A stretch of 36,870 nt of DNA from the NCBI GenBank assembly GCA_021813505.1, contig JAKAKI010000076.1, forward strand, positions 1 to 36,870. Direction: 5' to 3'. Below, piece by piece: positions 4,239 through 33,331 of the stretch. Both the position numbers and the translations under genes were made by a program. The notes under the pieces are model-generated. The model was not told the origin of the DNA, did not search any database, and was given only the letters and a program-made list of their open reading frames with translations. The DNA is from a bacterium. Lineage in GTDB: Bacteria > Zixibacteria > MSB-5A5 > WJJR01. Every line of letters begins with the position of its first letter. Within the stretch, counting starts at the first letter, position 1.

Positions 4239-7200
4239 TTACGCAATCTCCGGCGCGAGCAACTTGTACATCACCGGTGTGACCAGACGGGTCAGGATGG
4301 TGGAGGTGATCAGGCCGCCGATGATGACCATCGCGAGGGGCGCGTAGAGGGGGGCGCCTTCGAGGACCAGCGGGATCATGCCGCCGATCGCGGTCAGGGT
4401 GGTCAGCAGGATCGGGACAAATCGGATCTCGCCGGCTTCCTGGATCGCGTCGTCGACGCTCTTCCCCTGTTGCCGCAACTGATTCGTGAAGTCGACCAGC
4501 AAAATCGAGTTCTTCACTTCGATTCCCATCAGGGCAATGAAACCGATCATCGCCACGAAGGACAGGGTCTCGCGACCGATCAAAAGCGCCACGATGCCGC
4601 CGATGATGCCCAGCGGGATGACCGAGGCGACAATCAATGTCCCCTTGAACGTCTTGAATTCCAGGATCAGCACCACAAACATTCCGAAGAAAGCGATGAG
4701 AAGGGCCGAACCGAACCCGCCGAAGCTCTCCTGACGGCTTTCGATCTCACCGGCGGCTTGAATCCGGTACCCCTGCGGCAGTTTCATCGCATCGATTTTG
4801 CCCAGCGCCTCTTTGGTCACCCGGTCGACATTGAATCCGGTTTGGACATCGGCCATGACGGTGACCGAACGCACTTGATCATAATGATCGATCTTCGTGG
4901 GGGAGCTTTGGAATTCCTGCGTGGCGACGTGCGCAAGCGGCACATAGCCGGCCGTCATCGATCCGACATAGATCTTGTCCAAAAGATCGAGCGTGGGACG
5001 CTTGTCACGCGGCAGACCGAGCACGATGTCGAATTCGTTGCCGCTTTCCTCGCGGTACTTGCCGACCGCAAGCCCCGCGACACCGAGACGGATCGAGCGC
5101 TGGATATCGACCAGTGGCAGCCCGAGCAGTCCGGCTTTGTCACGGTCGATGGCCAGCCGCAGGTCGGTGCGCGGCGTGGACATTGGATTGGTGAGCGCCA
5201 TCGTGCCTTCGGTGGAGGCAAGGAGTTGCTCCACCTGAGTCGCCAGACTCTTCAGTGTATCCAGATTGTCGCCCAGGATTCTCATAGCGATGGGCGCTTC
5301 CAGCCCCATACCGTTTTCGAATTCTTTAACTTTGATCTTCGCATCCGGATACCGGTCAAAGACGCGGCGCAGACTGTCGAGGTACACCGGCGTGCGATGG
5401 GCGTCGTATTCGTCGATCAAAACAAACAACTCACCAAAATTCGACTTCTCCCCCAGGCTGAGCCGGTTGTAGTACACCTGGGGATTTCCCTTCCCCACAT
5501 TGGTGAAGACGTCCTTGATTCCCGGCTGGCCCAAAAGCGAGGACTCGACAAAGTGCGCGGCCTTGTCGACTTCGGCGACCGAGCTCCCCTCGGGCGCTTC
5601 GATCGACACGATGAACTGCGGAATGCCGGCCTTGGGAAACAGGCTGAACCCAACAACCGGGATTAGCAGCAGGCTCGCCGCAAACAGCGCGGTCGCCAAG
5701 CCGATGGTTTTCCAAGGATGAGCCAGCGACCAATGCAGGATACGGCGGTATGATTTCCGAATCAGCCAGTTGAGTCCCTGCAGTACGCGATTGCCTTCCG
5801 GCTTCTCTTCTTTCTTCAGGATCATGCTGGCGAGAAACGGGATGATCGTCAGCGACACGAGAAGCGAAGCGCCAATCGTGTACAGCACCGATGCCGGCAG
5901 GCTGCGGATGTAGTCGCCGGCGGTACCGGGCAGAAACAAGAGCGGCAGGAAGGCGAACAGCAAAGTCGCTGTGCAGCCGATCACCGCCACGCCGATCTGG
6001 CGCGTGGCTTCGATGGCGGCTTCGCGGCGTGAGTGGCCCTGGCGGATGAAGCGCGAGATGTTCTCGATGACCACGATCGAGTCATCGACCAGGAGACCCA
6101 GGGCCACCACGAAGCCGACAATGCTCAGTTGGTTCAGACTGAAACCGGAGAAGTACAACGCCGCCGTCCCGATCGCCATCGAGAGCGGGATGGAGATCAT
6201 GACGATGATCGACGCGCGCCCTCCCAACGGCAGCAGCGTCAGTATCACCAGGACGATGGCGATGAGAAAATCGGTCTGCAGATGTCCGAGACGGCGGGCG
6301 ACATTGCGCGACTGATCGAATCCGGTGTCGAGTGTGACTCCGGCGGGCAGGTCGCGCTTGAATTCGTCGAACACCTGGTAGATACGGTCGCGGACGGGGA
6401 AAATATTCTGTCCGGCCTGCAGGGTGGCGACAACATAAAGCGCCCGCTTGCCGTTGAACCGCGCTGTGTACGTTTCGTCATCGTGGCCCCATTTGATGTC
6501 GGCGATATCGCGCAGACGGAGAACCGACCCGCCGGCGCTGCCGACAACGGTGGCTCCGATTTGATCCAATGACCGGTAGCGTCCGGAGGTCTCAAGATTG
6601 AACCGGCGCCCGCCGACGTCGACACCACCACCGGAGATGTCGGAATTGTCGCTTTGGATCGCACTCATGACCGCGGTGAGAGGCAGACGCAACGCCGCGA
6701 TTCTTTCCAGATCGAGCGATACCCGCACCTGCGGCATCGGATAACCGACCGCCTCGGCGTTCTTGATGCCGGGCACTTCATCGAGCCGGTCTTTGAGCCG
6801 CTTGGCAGTTTCGTGAAGATCTTTGTAACTGACCGAATCGGAGATGAGCGCGGCCTGTATGATCTTCACATTGGTGGTGCTGAACTTGACAACCTCCAGG
6901 TTCGCCAGTTCCGCCGGCAGCTTGCTGCGGATGGAATTGACCTGGCGAAGAACCGCATCGTGCTTGGTCTCCGCGTTCACTCCGGAGTTGAATTCAATCT
7001 GCACCAGACCAAGCTGGTTTTCGCTGGTGGAGGTGATCTTCTTGATATCTTCCAGTTCCTTCAACGATTTCTCGATGGGGTCGACAATCTGCCGCTCGAT
7101 GTCGTTGGGGCTCCCGCCCGGCAGAACCCCGACCACCATGAACACCGGAATCGGGAACACCGGGTCTTCGGAACGGGGAATGTTGAGGAACGAATTGACA

Positions 7201-24651: not shown

Positions 24652-24673
24652 GATAGAAAGTCGTCGATTTGGA

Positions 24674-24762
24674 GGGAGGGCGAGGCTCCCGCCGAGCCAT
24701 GCTACCGCGCGCGAGTCTGTTGTGCGCGCGGAACCAAGGCTCGGCGGGAGCCTCGCCCTCCC
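24674..24762. repeat. Palindromic repeat family A, copy 2
   Basis: 25-bp arms at 24674-24698 and 24738-24762 are perfectly complementary around a 39-nt loop. The variable position is C:G here instead of T:A as in the copy at 1096. Confidence 0.9.
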
Positions 24763-24837
24763 ACCCACCTTCGAATCAGCGGGAAACCGACGCGGACATG
24801 CGCTACGATTTTCCAAGGATTCTGCGGACTTTCTCCG

Positions 24838-24843: not shown

Positions 24844-24965
24844 CTTGAACGTTTCACCGTCGGCGACTTACCGTCGGCGTCACCAGATTGACAGCACCAA
24901 GCTGAACGTGCATTCGATGATCGAATCACCTGTCGGCGGGGGTTGCCAGATAGGAAGATTTGAGC

Positions 24966-26369
24966 ATGACCAAGTTCTCTGCATTTGCATTAAACCGTGA
25001 ACTGCTACAAGCCGTAGCCGACATGGGCTTTACCACTCCCACTCCGATTCAGAAAGATGCAATCGGACCGGCGCTCGAAGGGCGGGACATTCTTGCATGC
25101 GCCATGACCGGCTCCGGCAAGACCGCGGCCTTCGTGCTGCCCATTCTCAACGGCCTGATGGGGAGGAAACGCGGCACCACGCGCGCTTTGATCCTCACAC
25201 CGACACGCGAATTGGCGGCCCAGATCGCTGAGCATCTTGCGGCCATGGCCGCGCACACGACGCTCAGAGGCGCTGCCGTTTATGGCGGCGTCGGCATGAA
25301 ACCGCAGGAGGACGCCTTTCGCCGTGGCGTCGATGTGATTGTCGCCACCCCGGGCCGTCTGCTCGATCATTTCCAGTACCCGTACGCCAAACTGGCGGGA
25401 TTGGAAATCCTCGTTCTGGATGAGGCCGACCGGATGCTGGACATGGGCTTTTTGCCCGATGTTCGCCGGGTGTTGGAGCATCTGCCTCCACCCAAACAGA
25501 CGCTGTTCTTTTCCGCGACACTGCCGCCGCCCATCGTGGAGTTGTCCCGGGAAATGCTGCGCAATCCGGTCGCGATCAACATCGATCGCAAGTCCGAGCC
25601 GGCCGTCGGGATCACTCAGGCAATCTACCCGACACGCAAAGATCTGAAGACGGCACTGCTTTTGGAATTGCTGCGGCGCGGATCGATCAAAAGCGCGCTG
25701 GTTTTTACCCGCACCAAACACCGGGCGAATCGGTTGGCACAGTTTCTCCAGAAGAAGGGCGTGGCGTGCGAACGAATCCACGGCAATCGCAGCCAGAATC
25801 AACGCACCGAAGCGCTCGATGGGTTCCGGAGCGGACGCTTCCAGGTTTTGGTGGCGACTGATATCGCCGCGCGCGGACTCGACGTCGAAGCGCTCTCGCA
25901 TGTCGTCAATTTCGATGTGCCGGAGATGGCCGACAGCTACATCCACCGGGTGGGACGGACCGCGCGTGCCGACGCGGTTGGCGATGCGTACACGTTCGTT
26001 TCGCCCGAAGAGGAAAAGGATTTTCGCGAAATCGAGAAGGCACTGGGTAAACGACTGCCACGCCTGACTCTCGACGGATTCGACTACAACGCCAAGGCGC
26101 CGGAGAAGCTCGAAATCCCGATCGGCGAGCGAATCGCCGCAATCAAGGCGCACCGCGCCCTGGCGCGCAGCAATGCCGAACGGAAAGCGGCTCTCAGTTC
26201 CCGTGGCCAATCGGAACCGTCAGGCCGCTCCCGACCCAAACCGAGACCAAGCACAAGGCCAAGGCCCAAGGCCGAATCCGCCACGTCCGCACCAAAGCCG
26301 AAGGAAACCGGCAGCGGCTTCGGACGTCGCACGCGCGCCGGTGCGAAGCCATCAAGACGGCGGCGGTAG
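24966..26369 (+). CDS. DEAD-box ATP-dependent RNA helicase (RhlE-like)
   Basis: A 467-residue protein with all core motifs in order: Q motif (GFTTPTPIQ, 21-29), Walker A GSGKT (49-53), PTRELAAQ (79-86), DEAD (152-155), SAT (183-185) and HRVGRTAR (327-334). After the helicase core comes a basic, low-complexity tail rich in Arg, Lys, Pro and Ser, which usually contacts RNA. It most resembles the RhlE subgroup, which acts in ribosome assembly and RNA decay. ATG 24966 follows AGGAAG; a TTG two codons earlier is unlikely. It is a single gene flanked by repeats. Confidence 0.93.
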   Translation: MTKFSAFALNRELLQAVADMGFTTPTPIQKDAIGPALEGRDILACAMTGSGKTAAFVLPILNGLMGRKRGTTRALILTPTRELAAQIAEHLAAMAAHTTLRGAAVYGGVGMKPQEDAFRRGVDVIVATPGRLLDHFQYPYAKLAGLEILVLDEADRMLDMGFLPDVRRVLEHLPPPKQTLFFSATLPPPIVELSREMLRNPVAINIDRKSEPAVGITQAIYPTRKDLKTALLLELLRRGSIKSALVFTRTKHRANRLAQFLQKKGVACERIHGNRSQNQRTEALDGFRSGRFQVLVATDIAARGLDVEALSHVVNFDVPEMADSYIHRVGRTARADAVGDAYTFVSPEEEKDFREIEKALGKRLPRLTLDGFDYNAKAPEKLEIPIGERIAAIKAHRALARSNAERKAALSSRGQSEPSGRSRPKPRPSTRPRPKAESATSAPKPKETGSGFGRRTRAGAKPSRRRR

Positions 26370-26415
26370 GGTGAAAAAGGCTACATCCGCGTAACGCGGA
26401 ATCGGACGGTCCACT

Positions 26416-26500
26416 GGGAGGGCGAGGCTCCCGCCGAGCCTCTTCGCGGGAGAGATTTGTTCGGCTTCGACAAGAGGCTCGGCGGGAGCCTCGCCCTCCC
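26416..26500. repeat. Palindromic repeat family A, copy 3
   Basis: 25-bp arms at 26416-26440 and 26476-26500 are perfectly complementary around a 35-nt loop. It carries the C:G version of the variable pair, like the copy at 24674. Confidence 0.9.
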
Positions 26501-26570
26501 TCCCAAATCGCCGCAGGAGAAATCACATCCTCTTGTGGCAATCTCTATTCTCCAGTTGGAGTTCGTAGGG

Positions 26571-27039: not shown

Positions 27040-27384
27040 ATGAAGACCATCATTCTACTCACCTTGTCCAACATCTTCATGACCTTCGCCTGGTATGGAC
27101 ATCTCAAGACGCTGAGCGGCCGCCCGATTATGGTGGCGATTCTGGCGAGCTGGGGCATCGCCTTTTTCGAATACACCCTGATGGTCCCGGCCAACCGTTA
27201 CGGTTACGGCCAGTTCACCCTGCCGCAACTCAAGGTGATGCAGGAGATCATCACGATGGTGATCTTCGCGATCTTCGTCTACACCTACATGAAGCAGGAA
27301 CTGAAGCTCGATTTCCTCTGGGCGGGGCTCTGCCTCGTCGGCGCGGCGTATTTCATGTTCCGGGGGGGCGTGGCGGTGAGGTGA
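27040..27384 (+). CDS. DUF486 / DMT-superfamily small membrane protein
   Basis: A 114-residue integral membrane protein with four predicted helices (TIILLTLSNIFMTFAWYGHL, ILASWGIAFFEYTLMVP, ITMVIFAIFVYTYM, FLWAGLCLVGAAYFMFRGG). It matches the DUF486/COG3169 family, distantly related to small multidrug transporters; the function is unknown. ATG 27040 is the natural start, though no strong ribosome site is close. The 3' two-thirds of this gene is repeated, broken, at 29343-29608, with the toxin-antitoxin pair between. Confidence 0.88.
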   Translation: MKTIILLTLSNIFMTFAWYGHLKTLSGRPIMVAILASWGIAFFEYTLMVPANRYGYGQFTLPQLKVMQEIITMVIFAIFVYTYMKQELKLDFLWAGLCLVGAAYFMFRGGVAVR

Positions 27385-27461
27385 GGGCGCCTCGTCTGAA
27401 GGCATGTGCGCGGACGAGTCGGGATAGGAGTGGAAGCGTCCGCGGTTTTGTTGTTTCATCG

Positions 27462-28484
27462 TCAGGGATCGGCGATCAATTTGAACTCGCGGCCAAAATC
27501 CGCTATCACGAGGAGTATTTCTTCAAATTCTGGCGGCTCTTCAAATATCATCTCTCTCATACCATTGTAGTCACTCTTCCATGATGACATCTGACCTGTA
27601 GCCGGAATCAGTCGGAGCTTGCCAGGTTCGAGCGATTCCTGCGATCCCGTTTTCCGAAAGAACACCTTGCGATGAGCTATCACCCTGTGGAATAACTGAA
27701 GGTCAGCAGCGGCTTTCGCCGCTACTCCAGCTTTGATCAGACACCAGAGGTCGTAGTAGTGTCGTGCCAAACGCGGTCTTGGAGTCACTTCACTGACTCG
27801 ACAGTTCTGCTCATGTAGCAGTGATGTCTTCTCCCAAAACGTGCGTTCAGGAGTGACCGTTCTTGCCTCAAAGTGTGCATTCCCCAAGATGTCCGATAAA
27901 GCTTGATACAGATACGGTTCAATTCGCGGGCTCTTCACTGGCTCGGTGTCAGATCGGGCACCCAACTCAATCCGCACCACTGGCAAAACGTAGGGGCTTG
28001 ACTGAACGGCACTCGGATAGTGGAAGAGCAGGGTTTGTCTATCCCCATCGTCCGGATCAACTTCAATCCGCCACATGTACCCATCCAGCGCATCGTTTGC
28101 TCGTTGGCGAAATTCGGGTTCGAGCGATTCGCGGATCTTCGTCTGGCAGGCGCTGCGAAGATTCATCAATCGCCGTTCGCGTTCATGGGATCCTATCCCC
28201 GGCTGGTCCGGAGCCTGGTCACCACAGAATCCCAGGAAGTCGCGTGAAAGCACAATATCGATATCCTCGGACAATCGCTTGATCAGGCCCCACCCCTTCG
28301 AGAGTGAAGTCCCGCCTTTGAAAGTCAGGTGTTGGCCCGTATTAGGCAGCGCGAAGAGTTCTCGCAGTGTCCAGCAGACCCAGAAATCCTTCTCAATGCT
28401 GTTTGGTGGTAGGCCGAGGACTTCTCCGGCCTGCTGACAATAGTCCCGTTTGTCGGATTGTCTGAGCGCGATGTATCGGTCCAT
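27462..28484 (-). CDS. AbiEii/AbiGii-family nucleotidyltransferase toxin
   Basis: A 340-residue protein of the AbiEii (type IV toxin / MenT-like) family. The nucleotidyltransferase signature is present: KGGTSLSKGW (residues 56-65) followed by LSEDIDIVL with metal-binding D74 and D76. Known relatives modify tRNA or other targets with nucleotides and block growth or phage infection. A ribosome site (GAAGGG) lies within the end of the upstream antitoxin gene, and only 3 bp separate the two, so translation is probably coupled. Length and motif spacing are normal; no disabling change is visible. Confidence 0.88.
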   Translation of the reverse strand: MDRYIALRQSDKRDYCQQAGEVLGLPPNSIEKDFWVCWTLRELFALPNTGQHLTFKGGTSLSKGWGLIKRLSEDIDIVLSRDFLGFCGDQAPDQPGIGSHERERRLMNLRSACQTKIRESLEPEFRQRANDALDGYMWRIEVDPDDGDRQTLLFHYPSAVQSSPYVLPVVRIELGARSDTEPVKSPRIEPYLYQALSDILGNAHFEARTVTPERTFWEKTSLLHEQNCRVSEVTPRPRLARHYYDLWCLIKAGVAAKAAADLQLFHRVIAHRKVFFRKTGSQESLEPGKLRLIPATGQMSSWKSDYNGMREMIFEEPPEFEEILLVIADFGREFKLIADP

Positions 28485-28487
28485 CTG

Positions 28488-29108
28488 TCAGCCCTTCTGT
28501 GCACTGGCCACAATTCGAATCACATCCGCGACCCAGGCCGGAGCGTATGCAGCATCCTTCAGCAATTGATGTTTGTCTTCTTTCCTGAGCTTGCGGCGCA
28601 ACCGGGAAATGACCGTGTCGTCAACGTGCGTGCGACCGATGTACCGCAACGCCTGAATCACCAGGCCGCTGATCTTTCCTGCAGTGGCCATGTTCTTTGG
28701 CGTCGTGTGCTTCAGTATGATGCTTTGCCTCCCCAGCCGGACATTCCGCGTCAGCCCATCGGTCAGGAGCACCGCTCTCATCGGTACCTGATCGGAGAGC
28801 CCGAGCAGGTTTGCGGCGTACGCCCCGGATGGCTGAATTCTGCTGGCGTCTCGGCCCGCAAGCGCACGCGCAATTGTGTCTGTTGTGGGAGTCAAGTGCC
28901 CAAGCTTTCGATGCTTGCGTGGGTAATCGTAGAGGCCTCGCGCCAATTTTCGAATGGTGCCCAACTTCGCGTGCCGCGAAAGCGCCTGGTCTACTGCATC
29001 CCGGCTCCCTAGATCCAGGAAGTCGCTCGGCGTGAAGACACAGCCACGTCCCTTGGCCCTTATCCGGTCAACAATCTTCTTATCAATGGATTGCGCGTGT
29101 TTGCCCAT
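28488..29108 (-). CDS. AbiEi-like (DUF6088) antitoxin
   Basis: A 206-residue protein of the DUF6088 type. The N-terminal half has a winged helix-turn-helix (VFTPSDFLDLGSRDAVDQALSRHAKLGTIRKLARGLYDYP) as in AbiEi antitoxins, which bind their own promoter. The C-terminal part is the AbiEi-like domain (RIQPSGAYAANLLGLSDQVP). It precedes the AbiEii-like toxin on the same strand, the usual order for this type IV-like module. A 28-bp palindrome about 70 bp upstream could be its operator. Confidence 0.87.
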   Translation of the reverse strand: MGKHAQSIDKKIVDRIRAKGRGCVFTPSDFLDLGSRDAVDQALSRHAKLGTIRKLARGLYDYPRKHRKLGHLTPTTDTIARALAGRDASRIQPSGAYAANLLGLSDQVPMRAVLLTDGLTRNVRLGRQSIILKHTTPKNMATAGKISGLVIQALRYIGRTHVDDTVISRLRRKLRKEDKHQLLKDAAYAPAWVADVIRIVASAQKG

Positions 29109-29125
29109 ATTGTCTTCGCCAGATA

Positions 29126-29155
29126 ATCATACCTTTCTCATTCTCGTTTAGCCAA
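29126..29155 (-). promoter_or_regulatory. Candidate promoter of the toxin-antitoxin operon
   Basis: On the minus strand TTGGCT (29155-29150) and TATGAT (29131-29126) are spaced by 18 bp, 17 bp before the antitoxin start. It matches the consensus moderately. Confidence 0.35.
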
Positions 29156-29174
29156 ACAAACCTATTCTATTTTC

Positions 29175-29202
29175 GTCAGAAAAACATACGTGTTTTTCTG
29201 AC
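29175..29202. promoter_or_regulatory. AT-rich perfect palindrome upstream of the antitoxin gene
   Basis: Arms GTCAGAAAAACA and TGTTTTTCTGAC pair perfectly over 12 bp around TACG. It lies upstream of the antitoxin promoter and is far more AT-rich than its surroundings. An antitoxin operator is the likeliest role; a terminator is the alternative. Confidence 0.5.
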
Positions 29203-29342
29203 AAAAGATCCAGCAAGTATTTATGCGTCAGTAAGGATATCGGACAGATTCTCACCTTGGCCTTGCACCGGGCAGCCGACTGGACAGAAGACATATCTCG
29301 CTGAACTACAGTGCGTTAAGGAAACGGTGACCGTATAGCCTG

Positions 29343-29608
29343 ATCCTGGCGAGCTGGGGCATCGCCTTTTTCGAATACACCCTGATGGTCCCGGCCAACC
29401 CGCCGCGGCGGGCTACGGCCAGTTCACCCTGCCACAGCTCAAGGTGATGCAGGAGATCATCACAATGGTGATCATCACAATGGTGATCTTCGCGATCTTC
29501 ATCTACACCTACATGAAGCAGGAACCAAAGCTCGATTTCCTCTGGGCAGGCCTCTGCCTCGTCGGCGCGGCGTATTTTATGTTCCGGGGGGGCGTGGCGG
29601 TGAGGTGA
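29343..29608 (+). pseudogene. Truncated, frameshifted second copy of the DUF486 gene
   Basis: The sequence from CTGGCGAGCTGGGG to the GTGAGGTGA stop repeats the last two-thirds of the gene at 27040. By hand alignment I count nine substitutions, mostly synonymous. There is also a replaced segment five bases longer after GGCCAAC (near 29400), which shifts the frame, and a 15-bp tandem duplication at 29456-29485. The 5' end and start codon are missing. Confidence 0.88.
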
Positions 29609-29643: not shown

Positions 29644-30414
29644 TTACCGCTGGCACTGCGCGGCATGTCTCGCCAAGAGGAGCGGATCTGGTTGAAAGTG
29701 CTTTGGAAGCAGAAGCGTTTTCCCCTCGAAGCTTTGCAGCCAGTCAACGGTTTGCCGAGACTGCGCACTTTTCTTGCCGAGCTCAGTCGATAGTCGTATC
29801 ACGAATTGTTCATCGATCCACATCAGATGTCGATCGAACGCGCGATCATGTAGTGCATTCAGACAAAGGCCATTGCGGGGATTCAAACGGTTGCTCGGAT
29901 CCTCAGTCCATGGAATCACGTGACTTGCGATCAATAATGGGCGAATGGCGAGTCCTGTCACGCAACAGCGATAACCGTACGCAGACAACACTCGATCTCG
30001 AAAGAGACTCTGATTCACTCTCACGCGAACGAGTGCTTCCCGCTCACGGCCGGAATTCGGCAAGTCTCGAGTCTCGATACCGGACAAGGCCTCAACACTC
30101 GTTCCAAGACGGTCAGCCATTAGGCGCTGACTCTCAAAGACCAGATCCTCTGGCCGTTCAACGAATTCACGCCAAACTTCTTCATCGCCACGGGCACCAT
30201 GCGAGAGTCCCTTGACCCCGCGCCTCTGAAGGGCTGGGTCGAGTCGGGCAAAATTGGCAAGCTTCAGCGCAACCGACCCAACTGTTCGCCCAAGCAATCT
30301 GGCAAGTTCCACGAGCTCCGGATTGCGGGAGTTGATCGTCCCAAATGGGATGCGAGAGTACAAATTGAACGCAATTATGAGTTCATCGCGGGACCAGTTT
30401 CTTCTTTCTGACAT
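29644..30414 (-). CDS. HNH endonuclease, putative restriction-type
   Basis: A 256-residue protein. The N-terminal half (NWSRDELIIAFNLYSRIPFGTINSRNPE, then LKLANFARLDP and RGVKGLSHG) is a conserved domain found with HNH nucleases. The HNH core is ASHVIPW with H165, then NPRNGLCLNALHDRAFDR with N181 and H189, all present. The family is annotated as predicted restriction endonucleases, but no cognate methyltransferase lies beside it. It converges on the broken DUF486 copy. ATG 30414 has no clear ribosome site. Confidence 0.85.
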   Translation of the reverse strand: MSERRNWSRDELIIAFNLYSRIPFGTINSRNPELVELARLLGRTVGSVALKLANFARLDPALQRRGVKGLSHGARGDEEVWREFVERPEDLVFESQRLMADRLGTSVEALSGIETRDLPNSGREREALVRVRVNQSLFRDRVLSAYGYRCCVTGLAIRPLLIASHVIPWTEDPSNRLNPRNGLCLNALHDRAFDRHLMWIDEQFVIRLSTELGKKSAQSRQTVDWLQSFEGKTLLLPKHFQPDPLLLARHAAQCQR

Positions 30415-33159: not shown

Positions 33160-33261
33160 GCGGATGCGACTCGTTGCATGATTGAATCCTACCAGGGATC
33201 TTGCGAACTTGCCTGCATGGGCTCGCCTGTGGCTGCATTGCGAGTCTCTGCATTCCGGTGT

Positions 33262-33331
33262 GGGAGGGCGAGGCTCCTGCCGAGCCTTCTGCCTGCGCGG
33301 ACAAGAGGCTCGGCAGGAGCCTCGCCTTCCC
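33262..33331. repeat. Palindromic repeat family A, copy 4
   Basis: 25-bp arms at 33262-33286 and 33307-33331 have one mismatch around a 20-nt loop. It carries the T:A version of the variable pair, like the copy at 1096. Confidence 0.88.

Follow-up and report, generated by a model that had tools for sequence, protein, structure and literature searches.

The window (the whole 36,870-nucleotide stretch of DNA that we analyzed) contains a pair of AbiE genes between an intact DUF486 gene and a second copy of that gene's 3' end. The features of this locus are:

27040 to 27384, plus strand: intact DUF486 gene (DMT_6, 114 amino acids; PF04342, 6.1e-44), the regenerated or undamaged target gene
27138 to 27386, plus strand: left copy of the direct repeat, comprising the last 247 bp of DUF486 and 2 bp more
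27462 to 28484, minus strand: abiEii, predicted nucleotidyltransferase toxin, 340 amino acids (PF08843, 6.7e-37; PADLOC AbiEii, 1.9e-95)
28488 to 29108, minus strand: abiEi, predicted DUF6088 antitoxin/repressor, 206 amino acids (PF19570, 3.4e-53; PADLOC AbiEi, 1.2e-73)
29170 to 29206, no strand: inverted repeat GTCAGAAAAAC...GTTTTTCTGAC upstream of abiEi (z of -5.5)
29342 to about 29609, plus strand: right copy of the direct repeat, a displaced and decayed DUF486 3' end without a start
29399 to 29412, plus strand: replaced block in the right copy, with a net gain of 5 bp, a frameshift, and the palindrome CCCGCCGCGGCGGG
29455 to 29484, plus strand: 15-bp tandem duplication within the displaced copy (GATCATCACAATGGT, twice)
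29644 to 30414, minus strand: HNH_2 endonuclease-like gene (PF13391, 8.5e-11), collinear with L013:8026-8793 of G001, a genome from the same genus

By gene content, order, and spacing, the pair is a type IV AbiE toxin-antitoxin system. abiEi lies directly upstream of abiEii on the same strand, with a 3-bp gap, and the translation of abiEii carries the motif GGTSLSK...SEDIDI. The inverted repeat is probably the operator for AbiEi, and a comparable inverted repeat also precedes abiEi at a nuoN locus (L181). The window thus resembles other type IV AbiE systems in its pair of genes, their order and spacing, and the upstream inverted repeat, but its AbiEi belongs to the DUF6088 subfamily and its setting is a duplicated gene end. 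Given their family membership, we predict that the two proteins function as toxin and antitoxin. Between the DUF486 copies we found only abiEii and abiEi, and no integrase or recombinase belonging to the module, just as the initial annotation had it.

The two DUF486 copies are in direct orientation and match each other with E ~1e-93. The inner edge of the repeat is sharp, with identity starting at GAT (27138/29342), and the outer edge is flush with the stop codon of DUF486, as identity is gone 1-2 bp beyond the TGA. The initial annotation had described this repeat around the pair, along with a far copy that lacks a start and has a five-base frameshifting change and a 15-bp tandem duplication, and all of these are present. 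It began the feature too far to the right (the DUF486 gene starts at 27040).

The initial annotation also proposed looking in related genomes for a DUF486 locus that is uninterrupted and lacks the pair, and G001 has one. The gene order in G001 is DEAD helicase, a single DUF486, an HNH gene, and pth, with no AbiE. Both flanks of the insertion align to G001, and the right-hand DUF486 fragment and the HNH gene are collinear with the DUF486-HNH junction there. (In both genomes, the HNH gene is the downstream neighbor of DUF486, tail to tail.) The intact DUF486 protein of the window is 97% identical to the single copy in G001. The AbiE pair at DUF486 is an insertion.

The AbiE unit is of horizontal origin. 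Its AbiEi is 62-65% identical to AbiEi from another class and at most 39% identical to those from its own phylum. A precise loss in G001 is the alternative to a gain in the window's lineage, but a gain is simpler because AbiE was found neither in G001 nor in the other members of the family that we searched, and because AbiEi is closest to proteins from another class. In searches of plasmids and phages, the matches to AbiEii were distant (about 41% identity at best among the matches listed).

The HNH_2 gene has a dS of 1.26 relative to the HNH gene at the same place in G001, versus 0.22-0.24 for DUF486 and pth. This contrast is a sign of separate recombination and implies that imports touched the interval. 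Homologs of the HNH gene elsewhere in the phylum are solitary and lie beside unrelated genes (ispH-like, recA-like), with no flanking repeats. Because of the dS contrast and the unrelated neighbors of its homologs, the HNH_2 gene seems to be a solo endonuclease gene that is mobile. The DEAD helicase gene (24960-26369) has a dS of 0.65 to G001, which is above its neighbors, so it may be a separate recombination tract. A dispersed family of REP/MITE-like intergenic inverted repeats (GGGAGGGCGAGGCTCCCGCC...) occurs at 1067-1165, 24671-24765, 26415-26511, and 33261-33331, and is also present in G001. We did not see DUF486 adjoining pth outside of the genus.

We then compared the two DUF486 ends. 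Outside of the 5-bp block, they differ by 11 substitutions rather than the nine counted in the initial annotation, and 9 of the 11 are at third codon positions. (With the block included, an aligner places 10 of 14 differences at third positions, P = 0.004 versus 1/3, but the alignment of the block is arbitrary.) In a three-way alignment with G001, 2 differences are private to the intact copy, 13 to the displaced copy, and 9 to G001, and all three sequences differ at 3 sites. Five of the displaced copy's 13 private differences are in the replaced block, and another is at the edge of the repeat. Of the three sequences, the displaced copy stands apart. Its differences tend to be at third positions, the pattern of a gene that was functional during its divergence, although the numbers are small. 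Judging from these alignments, we favor two gene-like alleles at the window's gene ends. This agrees with the earlier claim that the copies diverged as coding sequence, and the nuoN repeat at L181 is a stronger example, in which third positions account for 17 of the 25 differences (P = 0.0004).

The initial annotation further suggested a polarity, in which the end of the intact gene was imported and the displaced end is native. The data lean against this. Relative to G001, the 3' part of the intact copy has 13 differences in ~247 positions and the 5' part has about 5 in 98, which are similar rates, while the displaced copy is farther away, with about 20 differences plus the 5-bp block. A caveat is that a comparison of three sequences has no root, and part of the displaced copy's distance could be due to its decay. 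Among 80 DUF486 loci found in a scan of genome contigs, none was closer than 72% identity. At L181, nuoN alleles from four related genomes did not discriminate which copy is foreign.

A survey of other loci suggests that in distant bacteria, too, AbiE pairs lie at gene ends with duplicated tails, and that the genes involved are different ones. We considered 89 other DUF6088/AbiEi loci and searched for direct repeats across the module (E < 1e-5 and spacing < 3.5 kb). With the window and a single contig-end artefact set aside, such a repeat is present at 15 of 88 AbiEi loci, versus 1 of 345 centers in unrelated contigs (P = 2e-10). A fairer control uses centers in the same contigs, and 6 of 131 of these have a direct repeat (P = 0.0024), so AbiE neighborhoods are repeat-rich in general. 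The six strict single-module cases alone show no excess over the same-contig control (P = 0.34). Seven surveyed loci, classified by eye, have the anatomy of the window, with a gene end on the near side and a displaced copy on the far side:

L181: 3' end of nuoN, 140-bp repeat ending at the stop codon; AbiE pair alone
L291: queH, 38-bp repeat ending at the stop codon
L171: 3' end of a brnA-like gene, 40-bp repeat; at 4703-6361, AbiEi (DUF6088) with a Fic partner replacing AbiEii
L125: 3' end of a tRNA or tRNA-like gene, 53-bp repeat
L174: Eco57I-type restriction-modification methylase gene, 98-bp repeat that extends 2 bp beyond the stop codon; 4.8-kb block
L251: hypothetical gene, 291-bp repeat
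L246: rne terminator, 54-bp repeat

The nuoN locus is the best repeat of the window's pattern. The third-position bias is absent in L251 (5/18) and is not significant in L174. In the window, L181, L291, L125, and L251, the block contains little beyond the AbiE pair. Repeat ends match stop codons in six protein-gene cases, and in the clear ones no more than 5 bp separates the two. Near the interior end, the repeat has 56 identical bp in the window and 25 in L181, with no core common to different targets. No integrase was seen at the window or at the seven matching loci, and in a motif scan of 90 loci just two had a tyrosine-recombinase-like ORF nearby, both of them loci that lack a gene-end repeat (although the scan missed at least the integrase at L276). 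In an AbiEi tree of 90 proteins, nine separate changes are needed to account for the nine loci with duplications (the seven above, the window, and L179). L179 (6017-6622) is another arrangement, with an AbiEi that lacks AbiEii between 300-bp duplicated 5' ends of a gene for an iron-sulfur protein; this AbiEi adjoins a restriction-modification gene.

Several other candidates for target duplications were rejected. The repeats at L165, L249, L279, and L284 are low-complexity or dispersed, the repeat at L269 is the 3' end of AbiEii, and the repeat at L290 is an overlap of contig ends. The repeats at L257, L276, and L294 are ambiguous and were not accepted. L290 (G978:C159) is a 3171-bp contig with 130-bp identical ends and an AbiE pair, in which we saw no replication gene; it could be a circular molecule that carries AbiE, or else an element with a perfect repeat on each side. 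At L276 (6281-7762), the AbiE pair adjoins both a phage-type integrase (PF00589) and a small ORF that is helix-turn-helix-like. In G301, a relative for the nuoN case, a 32-bp displaced nuoN tail lies 37 bp past the nuoN stop codon, with no AbiE between (L305), and could be an excision scar.

The best explanation for the window, to which we assign a probability of roughly one half, is a target-regenerating insertion at the 3' end of DUF486 by a toxin-antitoxin unit of ~2.2 kb that has no integrase. This type IV AbiE unit would have entered the lineage once the sister species had split off, and its insertion would have regenerated the target. Two homologous 3' ends, one incoming and one resident, would have landed on opposite sides of the unit, so the left gene would remain whole and the spare right end, beside its old HNH neighbor, would have decayed. 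Strand exchange would most likely have been the work of a site-specific recombinase that came from elsewhere or was later lost. The unit may then have been retained by addiction, with AbiEi repressing its own operon via the upstream inverted repeat and neutralizing AbiEii.

Any mechanism must leave the gene complete on one side, with a spare tail on the other, and must account for repeats that are flush with stop codons, varied targets, and the lack of an internal recombinase. Target regeneration accounts for all of this, but it requires a recombinase that acts in trans or was lost. In its favor are the empty site in G001, the far relatives of AbiEi, the recurrence at other genes, and the third-position bias in the window and L181; also, the tRNA case and the flushness with stop codons agree with known target-regenerating integration. 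Against it are the lack of a recombinase in the unit and of a conserved core between targets, and that, of the two copies, it is the intact one that is nearer to the sister species. The repeat-rich neighborhoods on the same contigs, the missing or insignificant bias in L251 and L174, and the classification by eye also count against it. Finally, none of 88 other DUF486 loci has a duplicated 3' end, so DUF486 is not a known hotspot and no integrase is known to use it.

Among the closest parallels is e14, a prophage with its own recombinase, in icd of E. coli. Both e14 and the window have an intact gene with a regenerated 3' end, a displaced end on the opposite side (icdC in E. coli) in direct orientation, and scattered SNPs, but the window's unit is just a toxin-antitoxin pair and has no integrase of its own. 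(In icdA/icdC, there are 12 SNPs and an 11-bp direct repeat; PMC4759930.) Similarly, the Islander islands in tRNA and tmRNA genes (PMC4383910) have a regenerated target and a displaced fragment that mark the ends of the island, and they use a tyrosine integrase. The AbiE pair at the tRNA-like 3' end in L125 resembles these islands, whereas the window has no visible integrase, its target is a protein gene, and we found no tRNA at the locus.

Such islands suggest another origin for the pair, as what is left of an island that was once larger and had an integrase. Regeneration of 3' ends is typical of classic islands, the AbiE pair in L276 adjoins a phage-type integrase, and AbiE stabilizes ICEs in Streptococcus suis (PMC11062541). 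But at least four unrelated loci (the window, L181, L291, and L125) keep only the pair, of ~2 kb, and both ends, which is not likely to result from random decay, so we consider this origin very improbable.

Restriction-modification units are also proposed to insert with long target duplications (Nobusato 2000 and Furuta 2010, as cited in PMC3874152). If the AbiE pair inserted in this way, then ~250 bp would have been copied and one copy would have decayed. The gross anatomy is alike: an addictive module without a mobility gene is flanked by target repeats on the ~100-bp scale, and the length of the repeats is variable (PMC3874152). However, a fresh target copy would have ends that are unrelated to gene boundaries. 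The repeats instead end at stop codons, as seen in the six protein-gene cases, and the window's copies look like diverged alleles rather than a fresh duplication; third-position-biased differences, as in the window and L181, are unexpected from the decay of a dead copy. This makes long target duplication improbable.

A serious rival, although we think it somewhat unlikely, is one-sided homologous recombination after DNA uptake. Here a relative would already have had AbiE downstream of its own DUF486, and after uptake of its DNA a homologous joint at the resident DUF486 at one end, with an illegitimate joint inside the gene at the other, would lead to a partial duplication. The repeats would be flush with stop codons without any integrase, because coding sequence is conserved and intergenic sequence is not. 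The varied targets, the third-position differences, and the duplicated 5' ends in L179 would also be accounted for, and the HNH gene's dS (1.26 versus 0.22-0.24) shows imports in this interval. On the other hand, the 38-53-bp repeats (queH, brnA, tRNA) are short for this process and usual for attachment sites, and the first arrival of AbiE at each gene end is left unexplained. In the minimal mobile elements of Neisseria, variable genes are swapped between conserved neighbors without a recombinase, but these rely on homologous flanks on both sides and are not known to leave a partial gene duplication.

Returning to target regeneration, a broader proposal is that AbiE pairs of the DUF6088 type are themselves mobile, as self-contained units of ~2 kb. 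They would have repeatedly inserted at the 3' ends of unrelated genes, each with a replacement copy of that gene's tail, and a recombination activity in trans would move them. We offer this tentatively, as an unlikely generalization.

Chromosomal toxin-antitoxin pairs that lack mobility genes must somehow get into new genomes, and how they do so matters here for an anti-phage system that is found across phyla. If these pairs are units that have no integrase but bring gene ends with them or trap them, then the duplicated tails would be datable scars of their arrival. The tails would show exactly where the pairs inserted and which empty sites to seek, and they would make the route by which the pairs spread testable.
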